In this document: piece after piece, positions 47,722 through 54,100 of the stretch
How the letters are laid out: the number at the start of each line of letters is the position of its first letter
How positions within the stretch are numbered: position 1 is the first letter of the stretch
NCBI GenBank assembly: GCA_014695255.1
Contig: JACJNX010000061.1
Coordinates: forward strand, 310,001-374,000
From: Cyanobacteria bacterium FACHB-63
GTDB taxonomy: Bacteria; Cyanobacteriota; Cyanobacteriia; Leptolyngbyales; Leptolyngbyaceae
DNA length: 64,000 nucleotides
Reading direction: 5' to 3'
The notes under the pieces: model-generated
Seen by the model: only the letters and a program-made list of their open reading frames with translations
Told to the model about the DNA's origin: nothing
Database searches by the model: none
Translations under genes and position numbers: made by a program

Positions 47722-50700
47722 TCATTTTGTCAAAATGTTGTTGATGCGATCGAGCAAATCTTCCATCGGCATCGGCGGCAGAACAACGGTCGCGATCGCT
47801 TCGAGCAGCGGCGTATTTTCGGGCTGATGATTGATGACTACGATCGCAATTTTTTCTCGGAATCGCTTTAAGGGTGAAAGCTGCTCGATTGCTGATTGAT
47901 CCAAGTCCAGAGCATGAAGCAAGAGTAAATCGATGCTTTGGGTATCGAGTTTTTGGAGGACATCTTGCCACGATCGCGCAATCATGCCGCGAAATCCAGC
48001 CGTTTGAAAGTATTGCATCACGGCTTGGAGCCAGTCTGCGCGCTTGGCTTCGGGAGAGCGCAACTTAGCAGCGTCGATCGCCAACACAAACGGTCGCCAA
48101 GCAAAGCCTGCGGCAACTTGAATCACTTGCAGCAGTGCGGAAGATTCTGCGCTTTCGTCAAGGGGTGCTAAACAAGGAAACACGGTTAATCCAGGCACTT
48201 GATTGGCGGCTTGTGCTGTAACTGGATCAAGCGTGACCAAGGGTAACGATGCAAGAAAACTACAGTCTCCTAATAGTCTCAGGTATCCGATCGGGTCAGA
48301 CACCGCCGCATCGAGCAGTACGATATTCGGCTTCCAGACCTGTGCGAGCAGTTCGGCTTGCTCTAGATCGTCTGCTTCAACGACGCGGTAATTCTGGCTA
48401 TGCAGCAACGCATTTAGATCAATCCCCGATCGATTTCCTAACCGATGTAGTTCTCCGTAGCGCGTTGGACTCAGCCGCAAAATCACGATACTTTGCGGCA
48501 GTGGCTCCACGATCGACGGCACCGATACCTCATCAGGCGTGAGTTGGTTGAGGACTTGCTGAAGCGCTTTCTGCACGATCGGCAATGCGACGAATCCATC
48601 GGCTTGATTGCGGTAGGCTTGATCACGATCGCCGCGAGTTCCCGTCACAATCACGGGAATCTCCCGCGTTTCAGGCTCAGCCTTTAGCAGCGTCAGCACG
48701 TCCCAACCAGAGAGCGTCGGCAACAGTGGATTGATCAACATGGCACAAGGCTGTAACCGACGGGCTTTTTCGATCGCCTCGGTTCCCGATCGCGCAATCA
48801 CCACGCGATATCCGAGTTCGGCAAGCTGTTCTGAAAGCAGTTCGATCGACTTCACCACGGCTTCGACAACCAGAACGAGACGATTGTTGGTCGATTTTGC
48901 GCGAGAAACGGCAATGCGATCGGTGGGATGCGGATGAGTGGGCGGCAGCAGGAGCGTAAATTCGCTGCCCTGATTCTCCTTAGACACAAACGAGACATCG
49001 CCGCCGTGCAGTCGTGCTAAACGCTGCGTCAGCACTAATCCCAATCCGGCTCCTTCAAATCGACGAGTCATCGGATTTTCAAGCTGCTGAAACTTCTGGA
49101 AAATTAAATGCTGCTTTTCAGACGGAATTCCAATCCCGGTATCCCAGACGGTAAAGGCGATCCAACCTTCCCAACGGCTTACTTTTAAGCCAATCTTGCC
49201 AGAAACATCGGTGAACTTTAACGCATTCGACAACAAATGCACCAGCATTTGACGCAGGCGCAATTCATCGGCAACTAAGGCTTCTAATCCTGGCTCAATT
49301 TCTAGAGTGCATTCTGGCAAAGCTCCGATCGCATCGAGAACGGTTCTAGTCTCTGGTTTCTCTTCTTCTAAACAGACTTGCTTCGCTTGCTCGAGCACTC
49401 GATCGCACAAAGACTTCACGCTGACCGAATAAAAAGTCAGTTCGAGCTGCCCGGTTTCAATCCGCGTCAAGTCGAGAATATCGTTGACGATCGCCATCAG
49501 ATGCCGTCCGCTGCGGTGAATCAGTTGGGCATAGCGAATCTGGCGTTCGTTTAGCGTTCCAGAAAGCTGATCTTTGAGCAAACTTGATAAGCCGAGAACG
49601 GCGGTGAGCGGGGTTCTGAGTTCGTGACTGATACAGGCAAGAAATTCGTCTTTCAGACGATTGAGCTGAATCAGATCGGCGTTTTTGGCTGCAAGTTCTC
49701 GCGAGAGCTGCTGTTGTTCTGTGATGTCTTGCGCCAGCACCAGCCAAATGCTCTCTTGCATCGGCGGTTGAGAATGATCGGATGGCGCTTTCCCTTGCTC
49801 AAATGCTGCTAGTCGAAACGCCGAATCAGAATTGACCCCTGGAATGTGCTGGTGTGAGAACAGTTCCCCAAGAGGAATTTTGGCAAACTGCAAGACGCGC
49901 TCTTGTCCATTTTTCAGCGGACAAACGCAAATACAGGTATTTGGTGCGGAGCCTTTTTGGCAAAGGTTAGCCGTCACAGAGGCGACAACGGGTGCGCTAT
50001 GGGTTGAAGATGGGACGGTAGGTGCAGCAAACTCCAGGATCGTGGCTGCATCTCGCTGCACCCAGTTTGGATCGAGGATATCTCCCAGTTGCTCTGCCCA
50101 CACTTTATTTTGAGCAATCACCTCTCCGGTTTGGGTTTGCAGCATCAAGGGCAGCGGTAGGTGATCCAGAAACTGCATTAACGTTGCATTTGAGTCAGGT
50201 TCAGCGGCTGCATCAAAGTGTGTAAAGCCTTCAACGAGTTCATAGCCAAGTTTTGCAGTCTGAGTTTGAATCTGCTGCTGAAGTTGATTCATTGCAGGTG
50301 AGAGCTTCAGGCGCGATCGTTCCAATTCTGCACAGGATTCGGTTTTGGCGCGATGCCAGAGGGATTCAGAGGAAGCCTTCGGCTGAATCGGCTCGGACTG
50401 CAAAAACCCTGACCAGGTGCGTAACACCACGCTATCAACTAATCCGAGAAACTGATGCGCTGCGTTTACCACTGCCCAATATCGGAGCGGACTCGAAAAT
50501 TCAAGTTCAAGTAAATCTGTCGTGTCTGCGATCGTCGGTAGCGGCTGGATCAAGGGTTCAAAGTCGCACTCCTCTGCCTGCCTGACCTGAGAGAGCAACG
50601 CATACGCATGAACTACACCGATCGGAGACTGCCGCTCATCTACGAATACCAAGCGGTCAGCCTGATACCGCCCCAGCAGTTCAATGACTTCAGTCGAAGT

Positions 50701-50766
50701 TGCCGACTGCAAACAAACGGGGGCAGGCTCGATGAAATCATGAATCGAGGCTGGATAGATCACCAT
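47722..50766 (-). CDS. Hybrid histidine kinase with CBS pair, PAS and three receiver-like domains
   Basis: 1014-aa soluble sensor kinase. Order: two CBS-like segments (about 10-118; RLVFVDERQSPIGVV, YWAVVNAAHQFLGLVD), a helical linker, a PAS-like region (about 195-350), HisKA with H-box ISHELRTPLT (His381), an HATPase (N-box LLSNALKF, DTGIGI, GAGLGLV), and three receiver-like domains. In receiver 1 the phosphoacceptor Asp is Asn679 (MLINPLLP); receiver 2 keeps Asp819 (IVLLDAA); receiver 3 has His951 (LLLLHAL). The switch Lys is missing in the first two. It is divergent from kaiA, 375 bp away. Pseudo-receivers of this sort occur in the clock proteins KaiA and CikA, so a clock role is a reasonable inference. 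Confidence 0.88.
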   Translation of the reverse strand: MVIYPASIHDFIEPAPVCLQSATSTEVIELLGRYQADRLVFVDERQSPIGVVHAYALLSQVRQAEECDFEPLIQPLPTIADTTDLLELEFSSPLRYWAVVNAAHQFLGLVDSVVLRTWSGFLQSEPIQPKASSESLWHRAKTESCAELERSRLKLSPAMNQLQQQIQTQTAKLGYELVEGFTHFDAAAEPDSNATLMQFLDHLPLPLMLQTQTGEVIAQNKVWAEQLGDILDPNWVQRDAATILEFAAPTVPSSTHSAPVVASVTANLCQKGSAPNTCICVCPLKNGQERVLQFAKIPLGELFSHQHIPGVNSDSAFRLAAFEQGKAPSDHSQPPMQESIWLVLAQDITEQQQLSRELAAKNADLIQLNRLKDEFLACISHELRTPLTAVLGLSSLLKDQLSGTLNERQIRYAQLIHRSGRHLMAIVNDILDLTRIETGQLELTFYSVSVKSLCDRVLEQAKQVCLEEEKPETRTVLDAIGALPECTLEIEPGLEALVADELRLRQMLVHLLSNALKFTDVSGKIGLKVSRWEGWIAFTVWDTGIGIPSEKQHLIFQKFQQLENPMTRRFEGAGLGLVLTQRLARLHGGDVSFVSKENQGSEFTLLLPPTHPHPTDRIAVSRAKSTNNRLVLVVEAVVKSIELLSEQLAELGYRVVIARSGTEAIEKARRLQPCAMLINPLLPTLSGWDVLTLLKAEPETREIPVIVTGTRGDRDQAYRNQADGFVALPIVQKALQQVLNQLTPDEVSVPSIVEPLPQSIVILRLSPTRYGELHRLGNRSGIDLNALLHSQNYRVVEADDLEQAELLAQVWKPNIVLLDAAVSDPIGYLRLLGDCSFLASLPLVTLDPVTAQAANQVPGLTVFPCLAPLDESAESSALLQVIQVAAGFAWRPFVLAIDAAKLRSPEAKRADWLQAVMQYFQTAGFRGMIARSWQDVLQKLDTQSIDLLLLHALDLDQSAIEQLSPLKRFREKIAIVVINHQPENTPLLEAIATVVLPPMPMEDLLDRINNILTK

Positions 50767-51141
50767 CGCTTTATCCTGACCGATTCGGCAGAAGATCGCA
50801 AGTCAGCGTTGTCCTTGATTTTAATCGCTGATCAAGGTCTGATTACGGTTTATCGAGCAGCAAAAGCACTGACTGAAATGGAATTTATAAGGGTTGAGTG
50901 ATCACACTCAATTGAAGCGAATTTAAATTTATTTAAGCCTAGATCATGACACAGCGGCAAACTCATGTATGAGAAAAAAAGCTTTATGTAATTATAATTA
51001 ACGGAGCGCCAAACGCTTCAATCTAAATTAAACCTTTGATAAGAGCCTGTGCCCTAACTCTGGCACTTTCTCTACAACATCTTTGTAGGAAGAATCTTAG
51101 AATACAATTTAGCTCCCTTCATTCCATTCAGGTTTTTCGTT
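50767..51141. other. 375-bp divergent region between hybrid kinase and kaiA
   Basis: Carries the promoters of the sensor kinase and of the clock cluster. One perfect inverted repeat is visible (TTGAGTG-ATCA-CACTCAA, 50894-50911). The rest (50920-51120) is AT-rich without a recognised motif. Confidence 0.55.
50894..50911. promoter_or_regulatory. 18-bp inverted repeat upstream of kaiA
   Basis: Seven-bp arms with a 4-base centre ATCA. Position in the divergent kinase/kaiA region makes it an operator candidate; no T-run follows, so it is not a typical terminator. Confidence 0.35.
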
Positions 51142-52035
51142 TTGACAGTTCCTGTTTCTTCGATCGTGCGTCCGCAGCTTTCGATCGGTGTATACCTTGA
51201 TTCCCCTGATCTGACTCGATTGGTCGAGCAGTCGCTTTTAAGCGAGATTCTACAAGATCGCTATACTTTATCGATCGCGCAGTCCGAAACCGATTTTTTC
51301 CAACTGATTGAGCACCAAAAACAGCAGCTAGATTGTCTGATTTTAGAGGACGGGCAACACTTAATCTCTGTCCTAGAGTGGCTCCAGACAGGGGCGATCT
51401 TGCTTCCGGTCGTGATTGTTCAACCTGCGTCACAACAGATTGACCACAAACTCACCTTTTTCTACCACACCGCTAAGATCTGGGTGTCACTTGCAGACCT
51501 CGATCGCCTCGATATCTCGATTGCTCAGGCGATCGAAGCGTTTTTAACGTTATCCCCGACGTGTCAGCTTCCTGATCCGATTGCGACCCCGGATTTTACT
51601 CGCGATTTGCTCGCCCAGAACTTTCTAATGATGCAACAGCGCCGACTGACCGATAAACTCAAAGAGCGATTAGGCTATTTAGGAATCTACTACAAACGCA
51701 GTCCAAAAGTCTTTCTCAAAAACTTACCTTCCAATGAGCAGGCGGAATTTTTAGAGCAGCTTCGGATCGAGTATCGCGTCATTGTTTTGAGTTATTTCCA
51801 GGACGATCACGATCTCAATCAACGGATTGACAACTTTGTCAATGCGGCATTTTTCGCAGATGTGCCTGTGTCATACATCGTGGAGATCCATATGGAACTG
51901 ATGGACGAATTTGCAAAACAGCTAAAATTAGAAGGAAGAAGCGAAGAAATTCTCCTCGATTATCGACTGACCTTGATTGATACGATCGCCCATCTTTGCG
52001 AGATGTACCGTCGCTCGATTCCGCGTGAATCTTAA
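51142..52035 (+). CDS. kaiA: Circadian clock protein KaiA
   Basis: Stimulates KaiC autophosphorylation by binding its C-terminal tail. 297 aa, full-length form with N-terminal pseudo-receiver (about 12-140: LSIGVYLDSPDLTRLVEQSLL, LDCLILEDGQHL) and C-terminal four-helix dimer domain (about 175-297) with RLGYLGIYYKRSPKVFLKNLP, SYFQDDHDLNQRIDNFVNAAFFADVPVSYIVEIHMELMDEFAKQLKLEGRSEEILLDYRLTLIDTIAHLCEMYRRSIPRE, the KaiC-binding part. The start is TTG 51142 or GTG 51166; no ATG is available in the right place. First gene of kaiABC. Confidence 0.96.
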   Translation: MTVPVSSIVRPQLSIGVYLDSPDLTRLVEQSLLSEILQDRYTLSIAQSETDFFQLIEHQKQQLDCLILEDGQHLISVLEWLQTGAILLPVVIVQPASQQIDHKLTFFYHTAKIWVSLADLDRLDISIAQAIEAFLTLSPTCQLPDPIATPDFTRDLLAQNFLMMQQRRLTDKLKERLGYLGIYYKRSPKVFLKNLPSNEQAEFLEQLRIEYRVIVLSYFQDDHDLNQRIDNFVNAAFFADVPVSYIVEIHMELMDEFAKQLKLEGRSEEILLDYRLTLIDTIAHLCEMYRRSIPRES

Positions 52036-52101: not shown

Positions 52102-52419
52102 ATGAGTCCTTTGAAAAAAACCTACGTCTTGAAGCTGTATGTTGCGGGCAATACACCAAACTCGGTTCGTGCGCTAAAGACACTGAATAATATTCTTGAA
52201 AAGGAGTTTCAAGGTGTTTATGCGCTGAAAGTCATTGACGTGCTAAAAAATCCGCAGCTAGCCGAAGAAGACAAAATTCTTGCAACACCCACATTGGCGA
52301 AAATTCTACCCCCACCTGTGCGTAAAATTATTGGAGATTTGTCCGATCGAGAAAAAGTTTTGATTGGACTTGATTTGCTCTACGAAGAATTACGCGAAGA
52401 AGAAATTGATGCAGAATAA
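52102..52419 (+). CDS. kaiB: Circadian clock protein KaiB
   Basis: 105-aa fold-switching protein that binds the KaiC CI ring at night, sequesters KaiA and signals to SasA/CikA. Canonical sequence: [89 protein letters not shown]. The acidic tail ([11 protein letters not shown]) is usual. 66 bp after kaiA and 124 bp before kaiC. Confidence 0.98.
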
Positions 52420-52543: not shown

Positions 52544-54100
52544 ATGACTTCGAGCAACCCGACCGAACAACGTAACCCTCCGCAGCTTACCGGTGTCCAG
52601 AAAATCCGCACGATGATTGAAGGCTTTGACGATATTAGTCATGGCGGTTTACCGATTGGTCGGACGACTTTAGTAAGTGGCACTTCTGGCACTGGAAAAA
52701 CGCTGATTGCAGTTCAATTTATCTACAACGGTATTACTCAGTTTGATGAAGCAGGCGTATTCGTGACGTTTGAAGAATCGCCCGCCGATATTATCAAAAA
52801 TGCCTTTAGCTTCGGCTGGGATCTGCAAAAATTTATTGATGAAGGAAAGCTGTTTATTCTCGATGCTTCTCCTGATCCAGAGGGTCAAGATGTCGTTGGA
52901 AATTTTGATTTATCAGCGTTAATCGAACGCATCCAGTATGCAATTCGCAAATACAAAGCGAAGCGGGTGTCGATCGATTCAGTGACGGCTGTGTTTCAGC
53001 AGTATGATGCGGCATCGGTGGTGCGGCGCGAGATTTTCCGCTTGGTAGCGCGGCTCAAACAAGTGGGCGCAACGACGATTATGACTACCGAGCGCATCGA
53101 GGAATATGGTCAGGTGGCGCGGTTTGGGGTAGAGGAATTTGTTTCGGACAACGTTGCGATCGTGCGAAATGTGCTGGAAGGCGAGCGGCGTAGAAGAACG
53201 ATCGAGATTCTGAAACTGCGCGGTACGACTCATATGAAAGGCGAGTATCCGTTCACGATTACGAATCAGGGAATTAATATCTTCCCGTTGGGTGCGATGC
53301 GTCTGACTCAGCGATCATCGAATGTGCGCGTCTCGTCAGGCGTAAAAACGCTCGATGAAATGTGCGGCGGCGGCTTCTTCAAAGATTCGATCATTCTGGC
53401 AACGGGCGCAACCGGAACCGGAAAAACGCTGCTAGTCAGCAAGTTTTTGCAGGAAGCCTGTACCAGGGGCGATCGAGCAATTCTGTTTGCTTACGAAGAG
53501 TCTCGCGCTCAATTATCGAGAAATGCTTATTCGTGGGGCATTGACTTTGAGGATTTAGAGCAAAAAGGGTTGCTCAAAATTATTTGCGCGTATCCAGAGT
53601 CGGCGGGGCTTGAGGATCACTTGCAAATTATTAAATCTGAAATTGCAGAATTCAAGCCGTCTCGAATTGCGATCGATTCGCTTTCGGCGCTGGCAAGAGG
53701 GGTGAGTAATAATGCGTTTCGTCAGTTTGTGATTGGCGTGACTGGATTCGCGAAGCAAGAAGAGATTACAGGTTTCTTCACGAATACCACCGATCAATTT
53801 ATGGGGTCGCATTCGATCACAGATTCGCATATCTCGACGATTACCGACACAATTATCATGCTGCAATATGTCGAAATTCGAGGGGAAATGTCGAGAGCGC
53901 TAAACGTGTTTAAGATGCGCGGATCTTGGCACGATAAAGGAATTCGAGAATATACAATCAGCGATCAAGGACCTGAGATTAAGGATTCGTTCCGTAATTT
54001 TGAGCGAATTATTAGTGGGTCGCCGACGCGCGTTGCTGTCGATGAGAAGAGCGACCTATCTCGGATTACAAAAGGGTTGCGAAGCGAGGATAAGGGTTAA
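52544..54100 (+). CDS. kaiC: Circadian clock protein KaiC
   Basis: Hexameric autokinase, autophosphatase and ATPase at the core of the cyanobacterial clock. 518 aa, one shorter than the Synechococcus protein with the same numbering at the N-terminus. CI has Walker A GTSGTGKT (46-53) and catalytic Glu77-Glu78 (TFEESP); CII has GATGTGKT. The phosphorylation sites are kept as Ser431 and Thr432 in DSHISTITDT. The C-terminal A-loop and KaiA-binding tail (FERIISGSPTRVAVDEKSDLSRI) are present, so the oscillator should be complete. Ends before a strong bidirectional terminator. Confidence 0.99.
   Translation: MTSSNPTEQRNPPQLTGVQKIRTMIEGFDDISHGGLPIGRTTLVSGTSGTGKTLIAVQFIYNGITQFDEAGVFVTFEESPADIIKNAFSFGWDLQKFIDEGKLFILDASPDPEGQDVVGNFDLSALIERIQYAIRKYKAKRVSIDSVTAVFQQYDAASVVRREIFRLVARLKQVGATTIMTTERIEEYGQVARFGVEEFVSDNVAIVRNVLEGERRRRTIEILKLRGTTHMKGEYPFTITNQGINIFPLGAMRLTQRSSNVRVSSGVKTLDEMCGGGFFKDSIILATGATGTGKTLLVSKFLQEACTRGDRAILFAYEESRAQLSRNAYSWGIDFEDLEQKGLLKIICAYPESAGLEDHLQIIKSEIAEFKPSRIAIDSLSALARGVSNNAFRQFVIGVTGFAKQEEITGFFTNTTDQFMGSHSITDSHISTITDTIIMLQYVEIRGEMSRALNVFKMRGSWHDKGIREYTISDQGPEIKDSFRNFERIISGSPTRVAVDEKSDLSRITKGLRSEDKG

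Follow-up and report, generated by a model that had tools for sequence, protein, structure and literature searches.

Input to and output from the cyanobacterial clock are known mostly from a single unicellular species, and the input kinases of filamentous species, which have a clock as well, are unsettled. In this study, we analysed a histidine kinase gene in a stretch of 64,000 nucleotides from Cyanobacteria bacterium FACHB-63 (positions 310,001 to 374,000 of contig JACJNX010000061.1, in the 179-contig, 7.2 Mb assembly GCA_014695255.1; hereafter the window), where it lies head to head with kaiA, with kaiB and kaiC following downstream of kaiA. Several described systems resemble it in part. 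CikA of Synechococcus elongatus is likewise a clock-linked histidine kinase with a C-terminal pseudo-receiver (PMC12632262, PMC13421787), a domain that, according to a 2025 review, inhibits autophosphorylation, binds quinones, and binds KaiB via α1-β2-α2 (PMC12632262). Unlike CikA, with its GAF domain, the window kinase carries a CBS pair and a PAS-like domain, has three pseudo-receivers, and stands beside kaiA; in fact, no GAF domain occurs among its Pfam matches at E ≤ 10, which sets it apart from CikA. A separate CikA has, moreover, been reported in Nostoc and Anabaena (PMC12691664, PMC8064755). ShkA of Caulobacter crescentus is also a hybrid kinase with a pseudo-receiver, which, in the same review, binds HisKA and restrains autophosphorylation there until c-di-GMP binds (PMC12632262); yet ShkA additionally has a receiver that is phosphorylated, whereas the window kinase has no intact receiver. 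In Rhodobacter sphaeroides, a histidine kinase of the kaiBC operon has been put forward as one that might relay a redox signal to KaiBC (PMC5520375). This kinase too is kai-linked, but within one operon with kaiBC, while the window kinase is divergent from kaiA. Among curated families the best match is the HrmK hybrid histidine kinase (NF038297; 297.9 bits over residues 344-740, covering the kinase core and receiver 1); the score falls well below the family cut-off of 725, and the CBS part and receivers 2 and 3 lie outside the match, so we do not assign the protein to HrmK. Nor is it SasA, the clock output histidine kinase of the same genome: its score against NF006800 is 121.8 bits versus a cut-off of 342, and the genome's own SasA is found at C13 (551 bits). 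SasA proteins carry a KaiB-like domain at the N terminus and lack receivers, and the family is 383 positions long. KaiA itself, encoded across the same intergenic region, has an N-terminal pseudo-receiver with a weak profile match to receiver 3 of the kinase, but no kinase part.

Our findings indicate that the kinase is probably a clock-associated regulator that has so far escaped recognition, and a role for it in clock signalling is reasonable. The fuller reading that we prefer, with confidence somewhat short of even, is that of an old, clock-locus-linked histidine kinase/phosphatase acting in trans, which uses its pseudo-receivers as regulatory or docking modules and couples the clock, or clock output, to metabolic or redox state; the activity of the kinase, its partner, its signal and its effect on rhythm are what we infer here. 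A literature search limited to openly licensed papers found no description of the kinase family or of its kai linkage. A 2025 study sought substitutes for CikA in Nostoc punctiforme by similarity of GAF and kinase domains (PMC12691664), and such a search would probably miss this kinase, as it has no GAF domain. Held beside kaiA, it is a direct genetic target; in addition, its combination of an intact kinase with three pseudo-receivers suits it well for studies of how such domains are switched, a question which the 2025 review calls a mystery (PMC12632262).

Linkage and shared descent with the kai genes

A scan of genome contigs returned 190 relatives, the best 80 of which (hereafter the named loci) were searched for kai genes with the KaiA, KaiB and KaiC of the window as queries. 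In 79 of the 80, kaiA lies on the opposite strand at the 5' side of the kinase, and in the remaining one (L022) the contig stops 798 bp before the gene; kaiB was matched in 79 and kaiC in 77, the misses for kaiC being L022, L027 and L082. An even sample of the phylum, 386 genomes from 143 genera, gave a similar picture. At a cut-off of E 1e-90 the kinase is present in 90 genomes and 50 genera, and, among the KaiA matches listed, it is head to head with kaiA in 80 of these genomes and 46 of these genera. The other kinase genomes comprise seven with kinase and kaiA on separate contigs and three without a listed KaiA; one genome (G091, locus L113) proved to be head to head once its contig was fetched, beyond the 80, and in G097 a piece of the kinase lies at the edge of the kaiA contig (L109). 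A KaiA match occurs in 89 of the 90 kinase genomes versus 158 of the 386 overall, kinase genomes being related to each other. Finally, tree distances of the histidine kinase core and of KaiC agree closely across 76 sequences (r = 0.947; best of 500 label permutations, 0.27), and thus the two proteins descended together. An earlier note on this DNA, made from the letters alone, had proposed that the kinase feeds signals into or out of the Kai oscillator, and conserved linkage to kaiA had been set beforehand as a test of that idea. The idea passed this test strongly: the linkage is real and old, and the kinase has kept its place beside the clock genes in most sampled genomes that carry it. Together with an intergenic region in common with kaiABC, this co-inheritance suggests that the clock, or clock output, is coupled to metabolic or redox state through the kinase.

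The same arrangement could have a plainer origin: an ordinary stress or metabolism kinase, without clock function, might sit beside kaiA through vertical descent and a common promoter. Several observations weigh against the clock-coupled reading, and some of them favour this plainer one directly. Genome G255 has an intact kinase with no kaiA beside it (L107) and no KaiA match anywhere, its kaiB and kaiC being adjacent but away from the kinase (G255:C1:642718-644783), and it retains a SasA above cut-off. In G326, an intact kinase frame of 929 residues adjoins kai remnants (L112; G326:C106, 4029-4951), namely kaiA fragments and an 82-residue kaiC tail with no kaiB between them, and this tail is the sole KaiC match of the genome. 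There, no SasA rises above cut-off, versus five of five compared genomes with one; a sasA remnant covers residues 8-95 in two frames (L130, 873-1135), and one further KaiB-domain protein remains (C112, 242-aa frame). The G326 kinase is nonetheless 69% identical to that of G121 over 917 residues, and, since differences are low at codon positions 1 and 2 compared with position 3 (0.26, 0.15 and 0.54, respectively), it appears constrained. Thus, the kinase can survive loss of the oscillator for some time at least, and the two genomes argue that its dependence on Kai is not absolute. G326 is, in its own right, a case of natural clock loss in a cyanobacterium, a loss that could be recent. Six further genomes (G105, G111, G123, G157, G203 and G262) have kaiA on a contig other than that of the kinase, with no kinase in the stretch fetched around it (for G203, about 3.3 kb upstream of kaiA). 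Also, an ortholog at the cut-off is missing from 69 of the 158 genomes with a KaiA match, so that the clock does not generally need the kinase. Clustering of downstream neighbours, over the 64 named loci that offer 4 kb or more, showed no clear response regulator among the conserved ones: four clusters, present in 41-48 loci, are not response-regulator-like and a fifth, in 8 loci, is membrane-sensor-like, as judged from one sequence each, without a family search. Finally, the kinase is not among the regulators with RpaA sites that a more recent paper on Anabaena names in its text (PMC10805033).

On the other hand, so wide a retention of the head-to-head order would be unusual for a mere neighbour. 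In favour of the clock-coupled reading, a candidate RpaA site has been reported upstream of the Anabaena kai genes (PMC8064755). Divergent relatives still stand in place in 8 of 28 further kaiA regions, as described below, and in G039 a KaiA match, a close KaiC (best identity 29%) and a kinase at cut-off are missing together, with SasA kept (G039:C121:1614-3035; L128, L131). Overall, we consider an origin as a mere neighbour rather unlikely, and continue with the clock-coupled kinase/phosphatase as the preferred reading.

Domain architecture and the three pseudo-receivers

From the N terminus, the kinase consists of a CBS pair, a helical linker, a PAS-like domain, HisKA, HATPase and three receiver folds (table 1). 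Residue counts refer to an alignment of 81 rows, the window protein and the 80 named loci, with the own-genome loci L001-L003 left out; an internal start was chosen in several loci, which leaves up to six gaps in CBS columns. On the window protein, Pfam finds a single strong receiver (residues 631-739, 2.8e-14) and a weak, sub-threshold CBS match (0.085). Yet, among 47 aligned N-terminal parts, 45 match Pfam CBS at E ≤ 0.1 (best 1.3e-8), and an AlphaFold model of residues 1-370 (mean pLDDT, the predicted local distance difference test, 78.8) contains a CBS pair, long helices and a PAS-like fold. Foldseek and VIA-align place CBS pairs over residues 3-125 of this model (top Z 14.4 for 2ef7_A, root-mean-square deviation 2.7, 120 residues aligned). 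The two-repeat CBS pair, already called in the earlier note, is thus genuine despite the weak Pfam score of the window protein. Along the linker, pLDDT drops from about 75 to below 50. The PAS assignment, absent from the earlier note, stands on weaker ground, namely PAS_4 in 7 of 47 members at E ≤ 0.1, the predicted strand order and the position ahead of the kinase; its alignment gave no match to Protein Data Bank (PDB) sequences at E ≤ 10. The alignments behind the two AlphaFold models hold 50 and 46 of the 80 loci, sequences at least 88% identical having been removed, and short ones too for the second; those of the receivers and the PAS-like domain hold 22. Within the kinase core, the phosphoacceptor histidine and all six checked N, G1 and G2 box residues are invariant. 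H-E-x-x-T is the motif of bifunctional kinase/phosphatases. Judged by motif, the kinase core is intact and would also work as a phosphatase.

Three receiver-like β/α units follow one another in an AlphaFold model of residues 622-1014 (mean pLDDT 84.2). The first matches 3t6k_A closely (Z 20.9, root-mean-square deviation 1.4, 119 residues aligned), and, because matches to this domain filled the list, the fold search barely probed the other two. Against PDB sequences at E ≤ 10, receiver 2 gave 24 matches and receiver 3 gave 4, the best in each case being a receiver (0.005 and 0.04, respectively). The earlier note had read Asn679, Asp819 and His951 at the phosphoacceptor places of the three receivers and had concluded that the second keeps its aspartate. 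The residues are as stated, but receiver 2 is also degenerate and His951 is a local variant. In receiver 1, Asn679 and Glu635 are found in all 81 sequences, Ala636 in 79, and Leu728, at the lysine place, in 77; an alignment with PleD confirms the positions of Asp, acidic pair and Lys, that of the Thr being ambiguous by one residue. For receivers 2 and 3, catalytic positions were assigned by reading the sequence and the predicted strands. Receiver 2 keeps Asp819 in 80 sequences, but Arg764 (72) and Leu765 (79) replace the acidic pair, and the lysine place is taken by Pro864 (80) and, next to it, Cys (49) or Tyr (31). Receiver 3 mostly has Cys as acceptor (66; Tyr in 8, His in 4), with Asp898 kept in 80. 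None of the three thus combines Asp, acidic pair and Lys. By the definition given in the 2025 review (PMC12632262), all three read as pseudo-receivers, the first by fold and residues, the second and third by predicted fold and lost residues.

The persistence of Asp819 raises the question of a conventional hybrid phosphorelay, with receiver 2 phosphorylated on this residue, all the more so since changes at the DD, T or K positions need not, according to the same review, fully abolish phosphorylation (PMC12632262). The missing acidic pair, Arg-Leu in most sequences, and the missing lysine speak against it, and, of the 13 added sequences with this position (see below), 5 have another residue there; we hold such a relay to be very improbable. 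In the kinase/phosphatase reading, the phosphate should instead go to a separate regulator, because the three attached receivers cannot accept it normally. The intact core would act on a separate response regulator, with RpaA as the obvious candidate target, and the pseudo-receivers would work without phosphorylation. Receiver 1 may clamp the kinase core or act as its scaffold, a role of the ShkA type to which it is suited by its position directly after the kinase and by its conservation, the highest among the three (mean column identity 74%, versus 48% and 37% for receivers 2 and 3), whereas receivers 2 and 3 would offer docking surfaces to a partner.

Signals would enter through the CBS pair and the Cys-bearing PAS-like domain. 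The earlier note had suggested that the CBS pair senses adenylates, and this part of it finds no support. The ribose motif of adenylate-binding CBS domains is G-x-x-[TS]-x-x-D. After G50 and G108, the two aligned places, it occurs in 0 of 81 sequences, and, when the first 200 residues are searched regardless of alignment, only L015 and L039 contain the string. Adenylate sensing by the pair is therefore unsupported, although other binding modes are possible. Among the structures near it in fold are OpuCA and DarB bound to c-di-AMP, which makes this nucleotide a fair candidate ligand, no more. As for the PAS-like domain, its conserved cysteines are possibly a metal or redox site, by analogy with two other proteins: Hik2 carries a [3Fe-4S] cluster in its GAF domain and LdpA a [4Fe-4S] cluster, as listed in a 2026 review (PMC13421787).

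Diverged homologues and possible docking surfaces

From the 69 KaiA-positive genomes that fail the kinase cut-off, 28 loci were picked by hand and their kaiA regions scanned with a profile of the family. A divergent homologue lies upstream of kaiA in eight (L086, L087, L090, L091, L092, L097, L099 and L121), and the profile detected none in the other 20; a 78-residue receiver-2-like stretch in L103 was left uncounted, and L093 and L116 gave generic receiver matches only. All eight retain the phosphoacceptor His. All six checked ATPase residues are kept in L086, L090 and L121, whereas L087, L091, L092, L097 and L099 have each lost at least two of them and thus look like pseudokinases. The divergent homologues have retained the CBS part, the His helix and receiver 2, and the PAS-like cysteines are present in only three or four of 15 added sequences. 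For receiver 2, 13 added sequences were compared, five of them with a degraded ATPase and five undecayed (L107, L112, L113, L122 and L123). R794, E797, Q803, A804 and W811, in or at β2-α2, are kept in all 13, and in 12 the β2-α2 region shares more identity with the window kinase than the whole domain does, L099 being the opposite case. L838, P864 and A885, outside this region, are likewise kept in all 13. This is a conservation pattern that a docking surface could give.

Such a surface would suit a direct partner of the oscillator: receiver 2 or 3 might bind KaiB, KaiC or KaiA in the manner of CikA, so that the kinase reads the phase of the clock. The kept β2-α2 residues, retained even with a degraded ATPase, fall in the region by which CikA binds KaiB in the account of the 2025 review (α1-β2-α2; PMC12632262). 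Furthermore, comparison of receiver 3 with the N-terminal profile of KaiA by hhalign scored 31.8 and 28.1 in two set-ups, above 100 column shuffles (at most 21.4) and the reversed profile (10.0), with receivers 1 and 2 as the only other receivers compared. These two score at shuffle level, and we reject them as KaiA-like domains; for receiver 3, a hhalign probability of 35-52% makes the likeness to KaiA faint, a lead below confident homology. The exception of L099 and the equally persistent residues elsewhere in receiver 2 also detract from the docking argument, as does G326, which keeps the kinase without an intact kaiABC. CikA and KaiA structures are absent among the fold matches listed, which carries little weight, as one domain filled the lists. 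All in all, direct binding to the oscillator is in our view unlikely. The earlier proposal of signals into or out of the Kai oscillator thus stands in part: the linkage, the faint receiver 3 profile and the β2-α2 region of receiver 2 are in its favour, and the kinases retained in G255 and G326 are not.

The faint likeness also invites the thought that receiver 3 substitutes in trans for the pseudo-receiver that short KaiA proteins have lost. With a frame of at least 1000 residues as a stand-in for the presence of receiver 3, all 44 kinase genomes with a short KaiA qualify, versus 21 of the 46 others. However, the former come from few families (f7 and f3), perhaps reflecting one or two events. 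G241 has a short KaiA and no kinase, either in the stretch fetched around it or above cut-off, while the window has a long KaiA and receiver 3 together, and we give such a substitution hardly any credence. Returning to the preferred kinase/phosphatase, a bolder history may be drawn for it, which we consider somewhat unlikely: the kai locus would ancestrally have held four genes, the kinase and kaiABC, with the kinase as an unrecognised input or output arm of the clock, equipped with a redox-sensing Cys-PAS and phosphate-blind receivers, which decayed to a pseudokinase scaffold and was then lost in several lineages.

Layout of the locus

Open reading frame (ORF) coordinates bear out the first description of the locus, a hybrid kinase head to head with kaiA across a common region of 375 bp (table 1).

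Table 1. Features of the kinase gene and the adjoining kai locus, in window positions.
Feature	Position	Strand	Basis
Hybrid histidine kinase gene	47722..50766	-	ORF, 1014 aa, ATG start; domain matches
CBS pair, residues 5-125	50392..50754	-	Pfam CBS in 45/47 members; fold match 2ef7_A, Z 14.4
Predicted helical linker, residues 133-177	50236..50370	-	Helices 133-154 and 157-177 in AlphaFold model of 1-370
PAS-like domain, about residues 192-348, three conserved Cys	49723..50193	-	PAS_4 in 7/47 members; model strands and helices
Cys triad C269, C278, C280	49927..49962	-	80, 76 and 80 of 81 orthologs
HisKA, residues 372-439, H381 and T385	49450..49653	-	Pfam 2.6e-19; both residues 81/81
HATPase_c, residues 500-610	48937..49269	-	Pfam 2.7e-26; N514, D542, G544, G546, G574, G576 in 81/81
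Pseudo-receiver 1, residues 630-742	48541..48879	-	E635-A636, N679, L728
Pseudo-receiver 2, residues 760-886	48109..48489	-	R764-L765, D819, P864-C865
Pseudo-receiver 3, residues 893-1014	47725..48090	-	D898, H951
Divergent intergenic region common to kinase and kaiA	50767..51141		375 bp
23-bp block	50980..51002	+	Common to close relatives L004-L006; alignment of six intergenic regions
kaiA	51142..52035	+	TTG start; full length with N-terminal pseudo-receiver; Pfam KaiA 1.4e-61, KaiA_N 6.4e-32
kaiB	52102..52419	+	ORF; matches in 79/80 named loci
kaiC	52544..54100	+	ORF; matches in 77/80 named loci

Within the intergenic region lies the 23-bp block, whose L006 form is matched once in the window, with 2 mismatches, and not at all in 100 shuffles. 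Promoter-like and terminator-like sites occur there at chance level and were set aside, and no repeats were found between kinase and kaiA. A search of the genome with the kinase gave 157 matches. One is full-length; the rest of those listed are partial hits on other kinases and receivers. In Anabaena, we take all2883 to be the tag of the kinase gene, and this tag occurs in a table of predicted CRP targets. On the other side of the kinase, a convergent gene is found near its 3' end in 48 of the 64 named loci that offer 4 kb or more on this side (e.g. L034), at a median of 125 bp past the kinase match; as read from its sequence, the product is a membrane protein, glycosyltransferase-like.

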